A DNA stretch of 64,000 nt, taken from Acutalibacter sp. 1XD8-36. Its GTDB lineage: Bacteria > Bacillota > Clostridia > Oscillospirales > Acutalibacteraceae. Every line of letters starts with the position of its first letter. Position 1 is the first letter of the stretch. The stretch is from contig NZ_QZDU01000009.1 in the NCBI RefSeq assembly GCF_009917525.1, forward strand, positions 62,001 to 126,000, read 5' to 3'. This document shows, in pieces, positions 49,368 through 60,101 of this stretch. Below the pieces are notes generated by a model. That model searched no databases. It was not told the origin of the DNA and was given only the letters and a program-made list of their open reading frames with translations. The position numbers and the translations under genes were made by a program.

Positions 49368-52001
49368 TCATCCTCCTATCTGCTCACGGACAAGGCCCGG
49401 CACTGCCGCCAGCGCCTCGTCCAGCTTTGTCTGGTCCTTTGCCCCCGCCATTGCAAAGTCCGGCTTGCCGCCGCCGTTGCCGCCGGTGAGCTGGGCCACG
49501 GACTTTACCAGGAGCCCGGCCTTCAGGCCCTTCTCCTGGGCGGGCTTATTGCAGGCCGCGGCTAAGGTGGCCTTGCCCCCGCTTACCCCGGCGAACACCG
49601 CCGCCACAGGCTCATTGGCCTCCTTTGCCTTGTCACAGAGGGCCCTCAAAGCGTCCGGCCCGGTGCCGGAGAGGAGGGCGAAGACCACCTTTATCCCCTC
49701 CACGTCCTGGGCGTCCCGGAACACACCCTCCAGGTTCATGGAGGCTATCCTGGCGTTGAGGCTCTCTATCTGCCTGTCCTTCTCCTTGAGCTCAGCCATC
49801 ACCTGCCTGGCGCGCCCGGGGAGCTCTGCCGGGTTCATCACCTTCATAAGCCTTGAGGCCTCGTTCATGGCGTCTATGGCCTTAGTGAGCTCAGCCAGCA
49901 CGTTCCTGCCGGTGACGGCCTCAATACGGCGCACCCCCGCGGCGACTGAGGACTCGGAGACTATCTTGAAGAGCCCCAGCTTTGCGGTATTGTCCATATG
50001 GGTGCCGCCGCAGAGCTCCATTGAGAAGCCGTCGGTGACGGAGACCACCCTTACCACGTCCCCGTACTTCTCCCCGAACAGGGCCATTGCCCCCAGCTTC
50101 CTGGCCTCCTCAATGGGCATTTCCCTGGTCTCCACGGGCACGGCCTTCAGCACCTCAAGGTTTACAAGGCGCTCCACCTTTGTGAGCTCCTCGGGGGTCA
50201 CGGCTGAGAAGTGGGTGAAGTCAAAGCGCACCCTGTCGCCGTTTACCAGCTGTCCCGCCTGCTCCACGTGCTCCCCAAGGACCTTTCTTAAGGCCGCCTG
50301 TAAAAGGTGGGCGGCGGTGTGGTTGCGCATTATGTCGGCCCTCAGCCCCGGGTCTATCACGGCGCTGACGCTGTCCCCAACATTCAGGGTCCCCTCGCCC
50401 ACCACAGCCCTGTGGAGGAAGACCCCCTCGTGCCGGGTCACGTCCACCACGTCCACGGTGACGCCCTCGGCCTCAAGGGTGCCCGCGTCCGCGGCCTGCC
50501 CGCCGCTCTCCCCGTAGAAGGGGGTGCGGTCCAGCACCACCGACACCTCGGCGCCGCTCCCGGCGCTCTCCACCCGACTGCCGTTCTCGATTATAGCCAG
50601 CACCTTCGCGGTAGAGGTGAGCTCCCTATACCCCAGAAACTCCGTCTGGGGCAGGCCGGACACAGCGCCGCCCTCGCCCTTCCAGGCGTCGGCCCCGGCG
50701 TCCTTCCTGGCGGAGCGGGCGCGCTCCTTCTGCTGGCGCATAAGCTCCAGGAAGCGGGCCTCGTCCACCTCCATGCCCCGCTCGGCAAGTATCTCCTTTG
50801 TCAGGTCCAGGGGGAAGCCGAAGGTGTCGTTGAGGGTGAAGGCGCTCTCCCCGGAGAATACCTTCGAGTCCGCCTTGTCTATAAACTCGCTGAGCATTGC
50901 CATGCCCTGGTCGATGGTGCGGTTGAAGCTCTCCTCCTCGTGGGCAATCACCTTCTTAATGGTGCCCTGCTTCTCCCGAAGCTCGGGATAGGCCCCGCCG
51001 TTCTCCTGCACCACGGTGTCGACGAGCTCACAGAGGAAGGCCCCCCGGGCCCCCAGGAGCCGCCCGTGCCTTGCGGCCCGGCGAAGGAGCCTTCTGAGCA
51101 CATAGCCCCGGCCCTCGTTAGAGGGCAGCACGCCGTCGCCTATCATAAACACGGTGGAACGGATATGGTCGGTGATTATCCGCAGGGAGATGTCCGTCTT
51201 CTTGTCCGCGCCATACTCTACACCGGTGAGCTCGCTTATCTTCCTCATGATGTTCTGAATGGTGTCCACCAAAAACAGGTTGTCCACCCCCTGCATAACG
51301 CAGGCCAGGCGCTCCATACCCAGGCCGGTGTCTATATTCTCCCGGCCAAGGGGTGTGTAGTTGCCCTTGCCGTCGTTGTTGAACTGGGTGAACACCAGGT
51401 TCCACACCTCCACGTACCTGTCGCACTCGCAGCCCACGTCGCAGTCGGGTTTGCCGCAGCTGTGCTCGGGGCCCCGGTCAAAGTATATCTCTGAGCAGGG
51501 GCCGCAGGGGCCGCTGCCGTGCTCCCAGAAGTTGTCCTCCTTGCCCATGCGGCGCATATGGCTCTCAGGCACGCCCACATCCTTGGTCCAGATATCCCAG
51601 GCGACGTCGTCCTCCTGGTATACGGTAACAAAGAGCTTTTCCTCGGGTATCTCCAGTACCTTGGTAAAGAACTCCCAGGCCCAGGGAATGGCCTCTTTCT
51701 TGAAGTAGTCGTTAAAGCTGAAGTTCCCCAGCATCTCGAAGAAGGTGCCGTGCCGGTCGTCGATGCCCACGCTTTCTATGTCCGGGGTGCGTATGCACTT
51801 CTGGCAGGTGGTCACCCGCAGCCTGGGCGGGGTGGACTCGCCGGTGAAGAACTTCTTCATGGGCGCCATGCCGGAGTTTATCAGCAGAAGGCTGTTGTCC
51901 CCCTGGGGTATCAGGGAGAAGCTGGGGAGCCTTAGATGCCCCTTTGACTCAAAGAAGCGAAGATAGCTCTCTCTGAGCTCGTTCAGTCCTGTCCATTTCA
52001 T
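49368..52001 (-). CDS. alaS: Alanyl-tRNA synthetase
   Basis: AlaRS charges tRNA-Ala and, in this organism, tmRNA as well. The 877 residues are the full bacterial length. The class II core starts KWTGLNELRESYLRFFESKGH; the motif FFEMLGNFSFNDYFKKEAI is typical. The editing domain has HTAAHLLQAALRKVLGEHV and CGGTHMDN (zinc ligands). The C-terminal DHHA1-like domain contains GGNGGGKPDFAMAGAKD. ATG at 52001 follows TAAGGAGAGATAAAT, and a T-box leader lies upstream. Confidence 0.98.
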   Translation of the reverse strand: MKWTGLNELRESYLRFFESKGHLRLPSFSLIPQGDNSLLLINSGMAPMKKFFTGESTPPRLRVTTCQKCIRTPDIESVGIDDRHGTFFEMLGNFSFNDYFKKEAIPWAWEFFTKVLEIPEEKLFVTVYQEDDVAWDIWTKDVGVPESHMRRMGKEDNFWEHGSGPCGPCSEIYFDRGPEHSCGKPDCDVGCECDRYVEVWNLVFTQFNNDGKGNYTPLGRENIDTGLGMERLACVMQGVDNLFLVDTIQNIMRKISELTGVEYGADKKTDISLRIITDHIRSTVFMIGDGVLPSNEGRGYVLRRLLRRAARHGRLLGARGAFLCELVDTVVQENGGAYPELREKQGTIKKVIAHEEESFNRTIDQGMAMLSEFIDKADSKVFSGESAFTLNDTFGFPLDLTKEILAERGMEVDEARFLELMRQQKERARSARKDAGADAWKGEGGAVSGLPQTEFLGYRELTSTAKVLAIIENGSRVESAGSGAEVSVVLDRTPFYGESGGQAADAGTLEAEGVTVDVVDVTRHEGVFLHRAVVGEGTLNVGDSVSAVIDPGLRADIMRNHTAAHLLQAALRKVLGEHVEQAGQLVNGDRVRFDFTHFSAVTPEELTKVERLVNLEVLKAVPVETREMPIEEARKLGAMALFGEKYGDVVRVVSVTDGFSMELCGGTHMDNTAKLGLFKIVSESSVAAGVRRIEAVTGRNVLAELTKAIDAMNEASRLMKVMNPAELPGRARQVMAELKEKDRQIESLNARIASMNLEGVFRDAQDVEGIKVVFALLSGTGPDALRALCDKAKEANEPVAAVFAGVSGGKATLAAACNKPAQEKGLKAGLLVKSVAQLTGGNGGGKPDFAMAGAKDQTKLDEALAAVPGLVREQIGG

Positions 52002-52030: not shown

Positions 52031-52315
52031 AAAAATAAAAGCAGGCCTATCCGAAACCCATATGGGACGGATAAGCCCGCGGTACCACCCAAATTGTGCC
52101 GACTTAGCCGCCAGGCTAACGTCGTCACCAGCTCAAGTCCCGCTAACGCCGGGGATACGCCGCTGCTCCTCGCAGCGGAACGCCGGGGCCATAGGTAACC
52201 TGGCCCCCCTGAAGTTGGCCCGCTCCCCTGCCCCTGACGGCTCGCACCACCCGCCGCCTCTCTTTGAAGGTGTCTCGGGGAACGTCTGCTCCACGCTGTT
52301 ATTCTTATTCTGCTG
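52031..52315 (-). promoter_or_regulatory. T-box leader of alaS
   Basis: The conserved T-box GGGTGGTACCGCG lies at 52078-52090 (minus), upstream of a terminator stem (52044-52053 with 52068-52077, inner CCCATATGGG) and a U-rich run at 52031-52042. Conserved stem I sequences such as AGAGAGGCGGCGGGTGGTG are present. By position it should sense uncharged tRNA-Ala; the specifier was not assigned. Confidence 0.93.
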
Positions 52316-54606: not shown

Positions 54607-54974
54607 GCATAGCTATAGGCGTGATTATAGGGGCCCTTACAGGGGTGCTCTCGGGCTTCGGCGTGGGGGGCGGCACGCTCCTGCTGTTGTGGATGACGGC
54701 AGTGCAGGGGATGGGGCAGGCCCAGGCGGGCGGGGTAAACCTGCTGTACTTTATCGCCTGCGCCCTCCCTGCCAGCATTGGGCACATAAAAAACGGCCTC
54801 ATTGAGAAGAAGGCCGTTTTCTGGTGCGTGATTCTGGGGGCTCCGGCCTGTATAGCCGGGGCATTTTTGGCGGCGGGGATGGACACGGAGCTCCTTAAAA
54901 GGCTCTTTGGCGGGTTCATCCTGGCTATAGGCCTAAGGGAGCTCTTTTATAGTAAAAAACCTCAGCCCCGGTAG
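54603..54974 (+). CDS. TSUP (TauE/SafE) transporter, C-terminal half
   Basis: The 123-residue protein carries the second TSUP repeat (TGVLSGFGVGGGTLLLLWMTA) and four predicted membrane segments, followed by NLLYFIACALPASIGHIKNG. It starts at GTG 54603, overlapping the first half by 4 bp in another frame. The overlap with no repair of frame suggests a genuine two-gene transporter rather than a frameshift. Its last codons overlap the convergent DUF308 gene by 13 bp. Confidence 0.86.
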   Translation: MSIAIGVIIGALTGVLSGFGVGGGTLLLLWMTAVQGMGQAQAGGVNLLYFIACALPASIGHIKNGLIEKKAVFWCVILGAPACIAGAFLAAGMDTELLKRLFGGFILAIGLRELFYSKKPQPR

Positions 54975-55492
54975 AGCCGGTCGGCAAGGATGGTGCTCAC
55001 AAGGGTGGACAGGCCGTCGAACACAAAGCCCACCCCCACGAACCGTATAAGCGCCTCCAGCGTCCCGAAGGGGTTTAGCACCATCACCGCCCCGAACACC
55101 GAGAGGACCAGAGCGGAGATAAAGGGCCCCCACCATTTTTCAAAGCCCAGGGCCTTCATGTCCAGGGCCCGCTTTATGGCGGACACGCTGTCCACCAGGA
55201 TATAAATTCCCAGCGCCGCCGGGATTATGGACACGATAAACCTTGGGGACACCAGCAGAAATGCCCCAAGGGCTACCAGGGCCGCGCCGATAAAAAGCTC
55301 AAAGCGCCGCCCGTACTCCATGCCGGACCTCCTGTAGGCCATTATCCTGGAAATGCCGTACCAGAGGGTTACGGCCCCGATGAGAAAGCAGGCCCAGCGG
55401 ATGGCCTTGCCCGGGGCGGCTATGAGCACCAGGCCCAGCAGGGTGTACAGCACGGAGGTGGAGATAAAGCTGTTGCGGATACCTTTTAACAT
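54962..55492 (-). CDS. DUF308 (HdeD-like) membrane protein
   Basis: The 176-residue protein has six predicted membrane helices in the three-hairpin plan of the HdeD family (YTLLGLVLIAAPGKAIRWACF, GAALVALGAFLLVSP, LVLSVFGAVMVLNPF). HdeD in E. coli is tied to acid resistance; the molecular role is not known. Its stop overlaps the TSUP gene tail-to-tail. Confidence 0.85.
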   Translation of the reverse strand: MLKGIRNSFISTSVLYTLLGLVLIAAPGKAIRWACFLIGAVTLWYGISRIMAYRRSGMEYGRRFELFIGAALVALGAFLLVSPRFIVSIIPAALGIYILVDSVSAIKRALDMKALGFEKWWGPFISALVLSVFGAVMVLNPFGTLEALIRFVGVGFVFDGLSTLVSTILADRLYRG

Positions 55493-55570: not shown

Positions 55571-56128
55571 TTACAGCTCCAGCCCCCGCATCATGATATA
55601 CTCGTTGTGAAGGCTGCCGTCCTTGAAACGGTACGCGTCCGGGCGCACGCCAACTATCCTGAAGCCCATCTTCTCATAGAGGGCCCGGGCCCTTGCGTTC
55701 CCCTCTACAAACTCAAGCTCCAGCTGGGTCACATCCTCCCAGCCCCTTGCTATCTCTGTCATCTCCCGGAACATAGCCGTGCCTATCCCCTGGCCCCAGA
55801 ACTCCTTTAAAAGGGCGATGGCGATGAAGGAGCGGTGGCGCACCTTCATCATGGGGTTGCGGTGGACACTGCAATTTCCGGCTATTTTGCCGTCAACCTC
55901 GCACACCAGCACGGCGGCGTTTTCGTCGGAGTTATTGTCCTCTATCCACTTGGCCTCGCCCTCGGGGGTGTATTTTGCGCACTCCTCGGGGTAGCGCATT
56001 ATAAAGTCAGACTCCCCCGCCGAGCGCACAAGGTAGTCTAATAGGCCGGGGATATCCCCCTCCCGGGGGTTTCTAAGGACAGCCCTTCTGCCGTCCTTCA
56101 GCGTAAAGCTTACCTCTCTTGTAAGCAT
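55571..56128 (-). CDS. GNAT-family N-acetyltransferase
   Basis: The 185-residue protein is a standard GNAT with the acetyl-CoA motif LLKEFWGQGIGTAMFREM and the late ARALYEKMGFRIVGVR. It starts at the last base of the upstream fusion gene (TAATG), so it is cotranslated with it and shares its T-box leader. The substrate is unknown; an amino acid derivative or acyl-amine would fit, as inference. Confidence 0.9.
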   Translation of the reverse strand: MLTREVSFTLKDGRRAVLRNPREGDIPGLLDYLVRSAGESDFIMRYPEECAKYTPEGEAKWIEDNNSDENAAVLVCEVDGKIAGNCSVHRNPMMKVRHRSFIAIALLKEFWGQGIGTAMFREMTEIARGWEDVTQLELEFVEGNARARALYEKMGFRIVGVRPDAYRFKDGSLHNEYIMMRGLEL

Positions 56129-58425
56129 TATTTGTCCTCCTCCCTTATCTGCACCCGGCGTATTTTCCCGCTGATGGTCTTCGGCAGGTCCTCCCTAAAC
56201 TCCACTATCCGGGGGTACTTATAGGGTGCGGTGTGCTTCTTCACATAGGTCTGTATCTCCTTCTTGAGCCCGTCAGTGCCCTCCGTGCCCCTTGTCAGCA
56301 CTATGGTGGCCTTTACTACCTGGCCCCGGATGGGGTCGGGCGCGGCGGTGACGGCGCACTCCAATACATAGGGCAGCTCCATTATCACGCTCTCTATCTC
56401 AAAGGGCCCGATACGGTAGCCAGAGGACTTTATAACGTCGTCGGTGCGGCCCACGTACCAGAAGTAGCCGTCCTCGTCCCGCCAGGCGGTGTCCCCGGTG
56501 TGGTACATGCCGTGGTGCCAGGACTCATTGGTCTGCTCCTCGTTTTGGTAGTAGCCGAGGAACAGGCCGCAGGGGGCCTTTTTGTCCGTGCGCACAACTA
56601 TCTCCCCGGTCTCCCCCACAGGGGCCGTGGTGCCGTCCGGGAGCACGATGTCCACGTCGTAGAGGGGGCTGGGCACGCCCATGGAGCCCACCCTCGGGAT
56701 GGTGCCCACCGGGTTATATATAACGCAGGTGGTCTCCGTCTGGCCGTAGCCCTCCATGAGCATAAGGCCGGTGGCCCGCTTCCACTGCTCGTATACCTCG
56801 GGGTTTAGCGCCTCCCCCGCGGTGGTGGAGTACTCAATGCCGGAGAGGTCGTACTTACTGAGGTCCTCCTTTATGAAGAACCTGTACATGGTGGGCGGGG
56901 CACAGAAGGTGGTTATCTTATATTTTGCAAACATGGGCAGGATGTCGTGTGCGTCGAACTTGTCAAAGTCATAGGTGAAGATTGCCGCCTCGCACATCCA
57001 CTGACCGTAGTATTTCCCCCACATGGCCTTGCCCCAGCCGGTGTCGGAGATGGTGAAGTGCAGGCCGTCGGGGTTCACGTTGTGCCAGTACCTTGCGGTT
57101 ATATAGTGCCCCAGGGCGTATTTATAGCTGTGCACGGCTATTTTGGGATAGCCCGTGGTCCCCGAGGTGAAGTACATGAGCATGGGGTCGCTGCCCGAGG
57201 GGGAGTCGGGCCTTCTGTCGTACACATCTGAGAAGGCCCCCACTTCTTTATCAAAGTCGTGCCAACCTAAACGGTTCTCCCCCACCATTATCCTGACCTC
57301 CACCTGGGGGCAGCCGGCGGCGGCCCGGTCGGCCTCGTCGGCGGTCTCTCCGTCTGAGGTGCAGAGTATGGCCTTTACCCCCGCGGCCCTGAAGCGGTAG
57401 TCGAAGTCGTGCTCCGTCAAAAGGTGGGTGGCGGGGATTATCACCGCGCCCAGCTTGTGCAGGGCTGTTATCACGTACCAGAACTGGTAGTGGCGCTTCA
57501 ATACCACCAGCACCCGGTCCCCTCTCTTTATGCCCAGGCTCTCGAAATAGTTTGCCGCCTGATTCGAGAGCCTGCTGATATCCGAGAAGGTGAAGCGGCG
57601 CTCCTGCTTTTCATGGTCCAGGTGGAGCATGGCAAGGCGCTGGGGCTCCCTTCTGGCTATCTCGTCCACCACGTCGAAGGCAAAGTTGAAGTTCTCCTCG
57701 TTCTTGAACTCTATGCCCCCCAGAATGCCGTTTTCGTCAAGGGTGGTGGTGATAAAGGGGTCTATAACGCTCTCCCTGTGCTTCCGGGCCAGCCTGCGGT
57801 CTATAAGGGTCTGGAAGCGGTCGGCCTCGGGTGGCATATCCTCGCTCCCCTTCATCACCATGGCGTATAGCTGGCAGTCCTCCCCGCCGGTGGCAATCAT
57901 GCCGTGGGGGGTGCCGGAGTTGTAGTAGATGGAGTCCCCCTCGTTTAAGACCTCGATATGGCTGCCTATCTGGGCCTTCATGGAGCCCTTCACAACTATG
58001 TCGAACTCCTGGCCCGCGTGGCTTGCAAGCTTTATGGCAACGTGCTGCTCGGCCTCACTGTATGGCATGGTGACAAAGAAGGGCTCGGCGGTCTTGTTCT
58101 TAAAGAGCGGGGCAAGGTTCAGGTATTTGAAGCCGTGGCGGCGGGTGATGGGCAGGCCGTCCCCGTGGCGCACGATGGTGTAGCTGGAGAGGGTGGGGCT
58201 TACCCCCCGTATCAAATCGGTGGGGTCCACGCCGAAGCGCTTGGCGCATTTATAGATGAAGGTGAAGCTGAAATCCTGCTCCCCCTCCTCACAGCGGGTG
58301 TACTCCTCAGGGCTCACGCCTGTGCAGCGGGCCATCTCCTCCTGGGAGAGGCCGGCTATCTCCCTCATGGTGCGTATGCGCAGGGCGGCCTCCTTCAGCT
58401 GGGCTTTCAAATCTGTTTTTTCCAT
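56128..58425 (-). CDS. Fusion of XRE helix-turn-helix, cupin and acyl-CoA synthetase
   Basis: The 765-residue protein has three parts. Residues about 1-70 form an XRE-type helix-turn-helix (IRTMREIAGLSQEEMARCTGVSPEEYTRCEEG, split here as IRTMREIAGLSQEEM and CTGVSPEEYTRCEEG). Residues about 90-200 form a cupin (AGQEFDIVVKGSMKAQIG, GDSIYYNSGTPHGMIA). From about 220 on there is an ANL adenylating enzyme with P-loop MYFTSGTTGYPKIAVHS, EGYGQTETT, YHTGDTAW and the catalytic lysine in KTISGKIRR. It resembles medium-chain or aryl acyl-CoA synthetases. ATG at 58425 follows AGGGGGATTCCCA. It is under a T-box leader and drives a GNAT gene. Confidence 0.9.
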   Translation of the reverse strand: MEKTDLKAQLKEAALRIRTMREIAGLSQEEMARCTGVSPEEYTRCEEGEQDFSFTFIYKCAKRFGVDPTDLIRGVSPTLSSYTIVRHGDGLPITRRHGFKYLNLAPLFKNKTAEPFFVTMPYSEAEQHVAIKLASHAGQEFDIVVKGSMKAQIGSHIEVLNEGDSIYYNSGTPHGMIATGGEDCQLYAMVMKGSEDMPPEADRFQTLIDRRLARKHRESVIDPFITTTLDENGILGGIEFKNEENFNFAFDVVDEIARREPQRLAMLHLDHEKQERRFTFSDISRLSNQAANYFESLGIKRGDRVLVVLKRHYQFWYVITALHKLGAVIIPATHLLTEHDFDYRFRAAGVKAILCTSDGETADEADRAAAGCPQVEVRIMVGENRLGWHDFDKEVGAFSDVYDRRPDSPSGSDPMLMYFTSGTTGYPKIAVHSYKYALGHYITARYWHNVNPDGLHFTISDTGWGKAMWGKYYGQWMCEAAIFTYDFDKFDAHDILPMFAKYKITTFCAPPTMYRFFIKEDLSKYDLSGIEYSTTAGEALNPEVYEQWKRATGLMLMEGYGQTETTCVIYNPVGTIPRVGSMGVPSPLYDVDIVLPDGTTAPVGETGEIVVRTDKKAPCGLFLGYYQNEEQTNESWHHGMYHTGDTAWRDEDGYFWYVGRTDDVIKSSGYRIGPFEIESVIMELPYVLECAVTAAPDPIRGQVVKATIVLTRGTEGTDGLKKEIQTYVKKHTAPYKYPRIVEFREDLPKTISGKIRRVQIREEDK

Positions 58426-58483: not shown

Positions 58484-58796
58484 AAAAAAACCGTCCCATA
58501 GGAATAAACCTATGAGACGGATATGCTCCGCGGTACCACTCATATTGCGAAACTTACCTTTAGGTAAAGTCTTCGCCACTCTTCAAAATGTCAGGCTCCA
58601 TCAAGCCCCTGCTCTAACGCGGCGTACACGGAAGGCGTCTACTACCATAAGCTTATGGATTCGGGCCCCCGGCTCGGAAGGGATAAGCGCTTCGGGGGCG
58701 TCACGCCGGCTTGCAGCAGCCGCCGGCTCTCTGTGGAGACGGACCCCGGGCTATCTTCGTCATGGCCTTTAAGAATATGCGGTTTTAAAGTAAATT
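58484..58796 (-). promoter_or_regulatory. T-box leader of the XRE-cupin-acyl-CoA synthetase operon
   Basis: The T-box GAGTGGTACCGCGG is at 58528-58541 (minus), followed by a 12-bp terminator stem CCGTCTCATAGG/CCTATGGGACGG (58491-58520) and seven U. Upstream lie stem I type sequences including AGAGAGCCGGCGGCTGCTGC. The specifier region is GAAGCGCTTATCCC at 58680-58693; I cannot fix the codon from sequence alone. The leader has its own promoter. Confidence 0.88.
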
Positions 58797-58802
58797 TTAA
58801 CT

Positions 58803-58831
58803 ATTATACCCCAGTTTAAAGGGAATGTCAA
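58803..58831 (-). promoter_or_regulatory. Promoter of the second T-box leader
   Basis: On the minus strand TTGACA and TATAAT, both perfect, are separated by 17 bp. It starts a few bases after the rsgA stop. Confidence 0.85.
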
Positions 58832-59960: not shown

Positions 59961-60101
59961 AAATAAAAGACCGGCCCCCAAAAACAGGAGACCGGTCCTA
60001 CCGTTTTTTACTTTACTCGAAAGCATGGCAAGCGGCGGGTGCTCTGTCTGTTGGGTAAGTATATGGATACATGTCCGCTCACCGCCTTTCTTGCTTTCTT
60101 A
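59961..60101 (-). promoter_or_regulatory. Structured leader RNA with attenuator upstream of rsgA
   Basis: On the transcript GCAAG pairs with CTTGC and GGCGGTG with CACCCGCC (one bulge), nested within GAAAGCA/TGCTTTC-type outer pairing (60019-60098). The enclosed loop contains CATGTATCCATATACTTACCC. Next comes a terminator: GACCGG/CCGGTC with a U-rich tail (59961-59997), 74 nt before rsgA. I do not match it to a known riboswitch class. A 48-codon open frame starts between terminator and rsgA, overlapping it. Confidence 0.6.

Follow-up and report, generated by a model that had tools for sequence, protein, structure and literature searches.

A T-box leader with an isoleucine codon precedes a putative 2-methylbutyrate-CoA ligase in Acutalibacter and suggests a route to isoleucine by reductive carboxylation

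The best solved relative of the ligase described here is PDB entry 3etc, which we take to be MacsMa, the medium-chain acyl-CoA synthetase of Methanosarcina acetivorans. MacsMa prefers 2-methylbutyrate, an isoleucine-derived acid, is able to adenylate propionate and contains a tryptophan, Trp259, that is critical for substrate binding (PMC10455477, in excerpt). MbcS of Staphylococcus aureus (NCBIfam NF047394) activates 2-methylbutyrate and isobutyrate and supplies the acyl-CoA to FabH, feeding lipid synthesis (PMC10026030, in excerpt). In the rumen, carboxylation converts 2-methylbutyrate to isoleucine, isobutyrate to valine and isovalerate to leucine (excerpts of PMC2812497 and PMC7356843, citing Allison and co-workers). 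Feeding and labelling experiments showed decades ago that rumen anaerobes use branched acids to make amino acids, and the route as described in those excerpts names no dedicated ligase regulated by an amino acid. The locus analysed here would draw on the same precursors, and we propose for it a gene with specific RNA control. Its leader resembles the T-boxes of Rfam family RF00230 in Stem I, the specifier loop, Stem II/III, the UGGN antiterminator and the terminator; it differs from them in that it appears to control an acyl-CoA synthetase. Among T-box papers, the main texts of PMC2494555, PMC7778990 and PMC12452182 contain no occurrence of 'CoA', and that of PMC7583486 none of 'acyl-CoA' or 'AMP-binding'. 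Among the open-licence papers listed by our full-text searches, none describes T-box regulation of such a ligase or pathway in its title or at the beginning of its abstract.

Throughout, the window is the whole stretch of 64,000 nucleotides of Acutalibacter sp. 1XD8-36 that was analysed. The features of the locus are as follows.

58803 to 58831, reverse strand: sigma-70-type promoter, TTGACA-17-TATAAT, with 12 of 12 consensus matches
58510 to 58772, reverse strand: T-box leader from Stem I to the antiterminator (RF00230, model positions 1-219 of 219)
58682 to 58684, reverse strand: specifier codon AUC, isoleucine (from the Rfam alignment, the ileS leader of the same genome and the leaders of the genus)
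58528 to 58541, reverse strand: T-box sequence GAGUGGUACCGCGG (RF00230 alignment and motif search)
58484 to 58520, reverse strand: intrinsic terminator with a 12-bp stem (58520-58491) and seven U (58490-58484)
56128 to 58425, reverse strand: fusion of 765 amino acids, with XRE helix-turn-helix, cupin_2 and AMP-binding acyl-CoA synthetase with its C-terminal domain (Pfam)
55571 to 56128, reverse strand: GNAT acetyltransferase, overlapping the 3' end of the fusion; accessory (Pfam and ORF list)
54962 to 55492, reverse strand: DUF308 protein, next on the strand; accessory (Pfam)

We propose, with a probability of roughly 0.8, that the fusion is a ligase under isoleucine T-box control which, upon starvation, activates 2-methylbutyrate for reductive carboxylation to isoleucine. 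By pairing with the specifier AUC and with UGGU in the bulge, uncharged tRNA-Ile would allow the antiterminator to form and the fusion to be transcribed. From 2-methylbutyrate, which is an end product of fermentation in other microbes, the ligase domain would then make 2-methylbutyryl-CoA. A 2-oxoacid:ferredoxin oxidoreductase (VOR) running in the carboxylating direction would yield 3-methyl-2-oxopentanoate, from which a branched-chain aminotransferase would make isoleucine. In other species, a paralogue behind a valine T-box (GUA) would take isobutyrate to valine by the same route. We infer the working of the T-box in vivo, the ligase substrate, the carbon flow and the direction of the VOR from the features below, which are read from the sequences.

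RF00230 aligned with the leader over its full model length, with a score of 82.9 bits (E 1.5e-18 in a scan of 501 bases). The default scan of the whole window at the curated cut-off lists no T-box because this score falls short of the Rfam gathering score of 93. The shortfall is a calibration matter. RF00230 detects eight T-boxes in the genome (E up to 0.001) at 44.8 to 91.4 bits; none of the eight reaches 93, and the leader of the fusion ranks third best. The other seven are found upstream of leuS, a small GNAT gene with tyrS, leuA, ileS, alaS, a trpB-like gene and thrS, names that come from reading the ORF translations and not from an HMM search. When ten loci of relatives were scanned at the curated cut-off, two contained passing T-boxes, three in total (99.3, 96.0 and 95.7 bits), and the remaining eight had none above it. 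Within the window, GAGTGGTACCGCGG at 58541-58528 is the sole match to the T-box motif without a mismatch. At three mismatches there are eight matches against 6.8 expected by chance, so the motif alone is insufficient and we relied on the covariance model in rejecting a chance motif. The UGGN antiterminator and a competing terminator with a U run are both present. The fold of the leader has a z-score of -2.36, and 2 of 100 shuffles were as low. Through its UGGU, the T-box would be able to pair with the ACCA terminus of tRNAs that have A73, as is expected for Ile and Val. By eye, a promoter-like pair can be found at the same place in many aligned relatives. Judged by its covariance alignment, the leader is a genuine T-box. 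The preliminary description had placed a complete T-box, a consensus promoter and a seven-U terminator ahead of the fusion, and this holds: the covariance model accepts the leader, though below the curated cut-off, and fixes the specifier codon.

The window contains a second T-box (52060-52302, reverse strand, 56.0 bits), which is of the ordinary aminoacyl-tRNA synthetase type and lies ahead of alaS (49368-52001, reverse strand). An inverted repeat at 59965-60005, noticed by eye, is located in the gap upstream of rsgA.

The aligned specifier, AUC, sits in the specifier loop and is conserved among orthologues. The leader of the fusion reads AUC.C.CUUCC.GAG, and the covariance alignment puts its AUC in the same model columns as that of the genome's own ileS leader (AUC.C.CUCCC.AAG). 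Several T-boxes of the genome obey a positional rule in which a single base separates the codon from five bases belonging to the lower specifier stem, with GAG next. The rule yields the right amino acid at leuS (CUG), leuA (CUG) and tyrS (UAC), and no clear codon at the alaS, trpB-like and thrS T-boxes. With the surroundings fixed and the codon left free, 111 distinct leaders from the loci gathered (L001-L008 left out) gave AUC 97 times, GUA 13 times and GUC once. Over these leaders the codon positions hold 1.45 to 2.0 bits of information, the six preceding bases 0.2 to 0.9. AUC is readable in 25 of the 26 T-box leaders from the same genus, the 26th (L022) being cut by a contig end. Isoleucine and leucine had both been considered for the specifier on the basis of the sequence alone. 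The isoleucine codon stands, and a leucine codon (CUU or UUA in GAAGCGCUUAUCCC) is rejected, because AUC is constant among orthologues and the bases preceding it are variable, and because the genome's own ileS leader also carries AUC.C. The codons of L015, L016, L028, L143 (second gene), L147, L151 and L182 were read by eye from the sequence or from listed candidates.

The unit of T-box and fusion is widespread. A first search gave some match in 57 of 60 genomes, the present one included. Recurrence of the leader before orthologous fusions, on which the preliminary description had made its claim depend, was found within the genus: 26 of 27 loci compared (G023 and G025 left out) carry the T-box motif. 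The exception, L034, has kept the promoter and terminator and has lost the middle of the leader (by eye). The leaders of L022 and L028 have an apparent inserted repeat-like stretch ahead of the antiterminator, also by eye. In the first retrieval (loci L009-L058 and L139-L198), with identical ligase sequences entered a single time, there were 103 XRE-bearing ligase genes: 74 with AUC, among them L177 with its variant antiterminator, 16 with GUA, one with an unreadable T-box and 12 with no T-box seen, including L192, which cannot be judged because its sequence starts at the end of a contig. Seven more ligases had no detected XRE part and no readable T-box. Among the genes without it were those of family f38, whose five examined loci all lack the T-box. 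Genome G243 does have a T-box, with a variant antiterminator. The second retrieval comprised 80 named contigs, the best 80 of at least 589 confirmed matches and partly from the same species as the first. Its 101 fusion genes divided into 65 with AUC, 25 with GUA, four with a T-box whose codon was read as neither of these (one of them GUC, at L249), four cut and three with none; the script behind these numbers chose AUC or GUA among several candidates and hence carries some bias, the open-codon pattern serving as control. A ruminant host is named in 41 of the 80 titles (our count, for the best 80 of at least 589 matches). Nearest to the window among the matches listed are Neglectibacter timonensis, one Acutalibacter sp. 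and an uncultured member of the Oscillospiraceae.

The ligase domain (residues 215-764) matches 3etc from end to end with 639 bits. The match covers the fusion from residue 215 onward only, so 3etc is without the XRE-cupin part. In our reading of the alignment, the pocket residue Trp259 of MacsMa corresponds to W464, which is invariant in 25 of 25 aligned fusions, and the following residue is glycine in both proteins (G465 in the fusion). With end-to-end homology, AMP-binding domains and the acyl-pocket tryptophan all present, the domain groups with the MacsMa-like enzymes. The best NCBIfam model is that of MbcS, at 430.6 bits against a cut-off of 850, and the fusion is therefore not filed as MbcS. 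The helix-turn-helix and cupin domains pass their Pfam cut-offs and have residues invariant across relatives, which speaks for a reading in which the XRE-cupin part is the main target of the T-box, the fusion being a starvation-induced transcription regulator with the ligase domain as its sensor. We regard this as very improbable, since most of the invariant columns belong to the ligase part and XRE-cupin and ligase are separate genes in L053 and L054, so that the ligase function is kept apart. In the preferred reading, a ligase under isoleucine control, our guess would be that the XRE-cupin part adds a second, acid-responsive control.

The locus had also been described as an XRE-cupin-AMP-binding/GNAT operon. 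The GNAT gene does overlap the end of the fusion here, but it is not a core part: it was found downstream in just 11 of 27 genus loci (each with at most 1.5 kb of downstream sequence, one with none) and in none of the three loci compared from other families. The DUF308 gene was seen in 4 of the 27 genus loci.

Other neighbours are found in relatives. At L048, from the same family, an Ile T-box, the fusion, a P-loop gene, vorB, vorA, vorC and a branched-chain aminotransferase gene follow one another on one strand. The same VorBAC/aminotransferase set accompanies a tandem pair in L039 and L040, one fusion behind an Ile T-box and one behind a Val T-box; vorB of L039 is split into two overlapping parts. 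In L041, VorB and the aminotransferase score above the NCBIfam cut-offs; VorA and VorC are below theirs in L039/L041 and in the Acutalibacter genome. Among the loci of the second retrieval (best 80 of at least 589 matches), VorB is present in 27 of 80 and the aminotransferase in 14 of 80. The Acutalibacter genome encodes VorB (546.5 bits, cut-off 399) and IlvE (415 bits, cut-off 250) at loci separate from the fusion; the A, C and ferredoxin-like subunits of its VOR are beneath the cut-offs, and its VOR locus has no T-box motif. In five VOR loci examined from the genus, VOR is not adjacent to the fusion and has no T-box motif; a VorB match occurs in 29 of 29 genus genomes. Ligase, VOR and aminotransferase are found together, in one operon in relatives and at separate loci in the present genome.

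The operon shared in some relatives with VorBAC and a branched-chain aminotransferase argues that the unit of T-box and fusion is an amino-acid synthesis gene, and the fusion is best read as a gene of isoleucine synthesis. The earlier view that the T-box stands in front of a synthetase 'instead of an amino acid gene' is thus probably wrong. The suggestion of an operon that responds when one amino acid is short and that acts on an acid derived from an amino acid is consistent with the comparative evidence. Because a T-box turns its genes on under starvation, synthesis is a better fit than degradation. Alternatively, the ligase might activate 2-methylbutyrate for branched (anteiso) membrane lipids, the T-box merely reporting a shortage of isoleucine, the usual source of the primer. 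This is how S. aureus MbcS is used, which feeds FabH (PMC10026030, in excerpt) and whose NCBIfam model is the closest to the fusion. We think it unlikely, given that the fusion unit adjoins VorBAC and the aminotransferase in several relatives and that genomes without ilvC would otherwise rely wholly on imported isoleucine.

A separate paralogue (ligase 50-54% identical; L055, L058, L094-L099), partly split into XRE-cupin and ligase genes, has no T-box motif ahead of it and adjoins VOR in L058, L094 and L095.

Returning to the proposed activation of 2-methylbutyrate for isoleucine, the codon of the leader and a residue of the acyl pocket vary together. When 72 ligase domains of the AUC type were compared with 14 of the GUA type, the column that separated them best was the residue after the pocket tryptophan (G465), which is Gly in 71 of 72 AUC-type and Ala in 14 of 14 GUA-type domains. 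Over all labelled rows of the first retrieval, Gly occurs in 73 of 74 with AUC (L016, the exception, has Ala) and Ala in 16 of 16 with GUA. XRE-bearing rows without a codon label have Gly in seven cases, Ala in one (L179, a fusion without a T-box), another residue in two and were unread in three. The second retrieval (best 80 of at least 589 matches) gave 82 pairs of codon and residue, with Gly in 57 of 57 for AUC, Ala in 24 of 24 for GUA and Ala in the single GUC case; its ten unlabelled rows have Gly in nine and Ala in one. Isobutyrate, as the smaller acid, would be expected to call for a larger residue than 2-methylbutyrate. The valine label changes four times on a tree of 88 rows, in which the second gene of L143 is labelled 'none' (the tree preceded the reading of its codon by eye), and three times on a tree of 35 rows. 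A single origin of the valine type is absent from 200 bootstrap trees, yet the AU test is borderline (p 0.055) and does not firmly reject it. The codon switches should therefore not be counted as a large number of independent events.

The fusion also tends to occur where the classical pathway is missing. In a class sample of 293 genomes, ilvC is present in 16 of 56 genomes with the fusion and in 155 of 237 others (odds ratio 0.21, p 8e-7 by Fisher's test, which ignores shared ancestry); it is absent from 40 of 56 and 82 of 237, respectively. For ilvD the counts are 17 of 56 and 154 of 237. A full-length fusion was taken to be a match from near residue 1 to the end with at least 55% identity, in our reading, leaving out split or more distant relatives. 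By our tally, 6 of 21 families with the fusion include genomes that carry ilvC; in family f38 all eight fusion genomes do. Within the genus, ilvC, ilvD and ilvA are over the cut-offs in 8 of 29 genomes and none of the three is in the other 21, of which ten are at least 95% complete and eleven under 95%, and many of which retain an ilvD-like gene below the cut-off. All 29 have a match to the fusion, partial in three.

The genome of Acutalibacter sp. 1XD8-36 is one of the eight, with ilvA, ilvC and ilvD, so the carboxylation route would here be a salvage option or an extra. The presence of ilvC and ilvD also lends some weight to a route in which the ligase activates propionate, an acid that MacsMa can adenylate (PMC10455477, in excerpt), for carboxylation to 2-oxobutyrate and on to isoleucine through ilvB/C/D. 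Conversion of propionate to 2-oxobutyrate is possible in this genome. As the general function of the ligase, we consider it quite unlikely: ilvC is missing from 40 of the 56 fusion genomes of the class sample, where the route could not finish, and the valine paralogue, with one methyl added beside the pocket tryptophan, fits a choice between C5 and C4 branched acids.

With 2-methylbutyrate as the preferred substrate, the locus offers candidate genes and genetic control for a route known mainly from rumen biochemistry, and the specifier codon is a built-in statement of the product of those genes. It also leads to a single-residue hypothesis for the choice between C5 and C4 acids and allows one to predict which gut species rely on branched acids made by others. 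It further shows how the specifier codon of a T-box can serve in annotating acyl-CoA ligases, a superfamily in which substrates are difficult to infer from sequence. On balance, we favour a broader view, in which many gut and rumen Clostridia would make branched-chain amino acids from the branched acids of other microbes by dedicated ligases, each under a T-box of its product: Ile (AUC), Val (GUA) and probably Leu (CUC) and Phe (UUC). The Ile or Val codon and the residue beside the pocket would change in step (Gly with AUC, Ala with GUA), and the riboswitch would thus read out the substrate of the enzyme. Many of these species would have lost the classical ilv pathway and would depend on cross-feeding.

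Two further types of T-box unit were observed. A leucine T-box precedes a LeuA-like gene in L039-L041, L049, L143, L154, L155, L159, L160, L169, L171, L175, L218, L222, L235, L254, L271, L272 and L275; CUC was seen in 19 of 20 examined and was the sole candidate codon in 11. Often a TIM-barrel/AMP-binding fusion of some 830 amino acids comes after the LeuA-like gene, and the unit may be the leucine counterpart of the fusion system. In L043, L154, L164, L170 and L232, a PaaK-like ligase lies behind a T-box with UUC (phenylalanine) in five of five cases, in a search aimed at UUC. The ligase of L043 scores 531.6 bits against phenylacetate-CoA ligase (cut-off 646), and the codon suggests synthesis of phenylalanine from phenylacetate.
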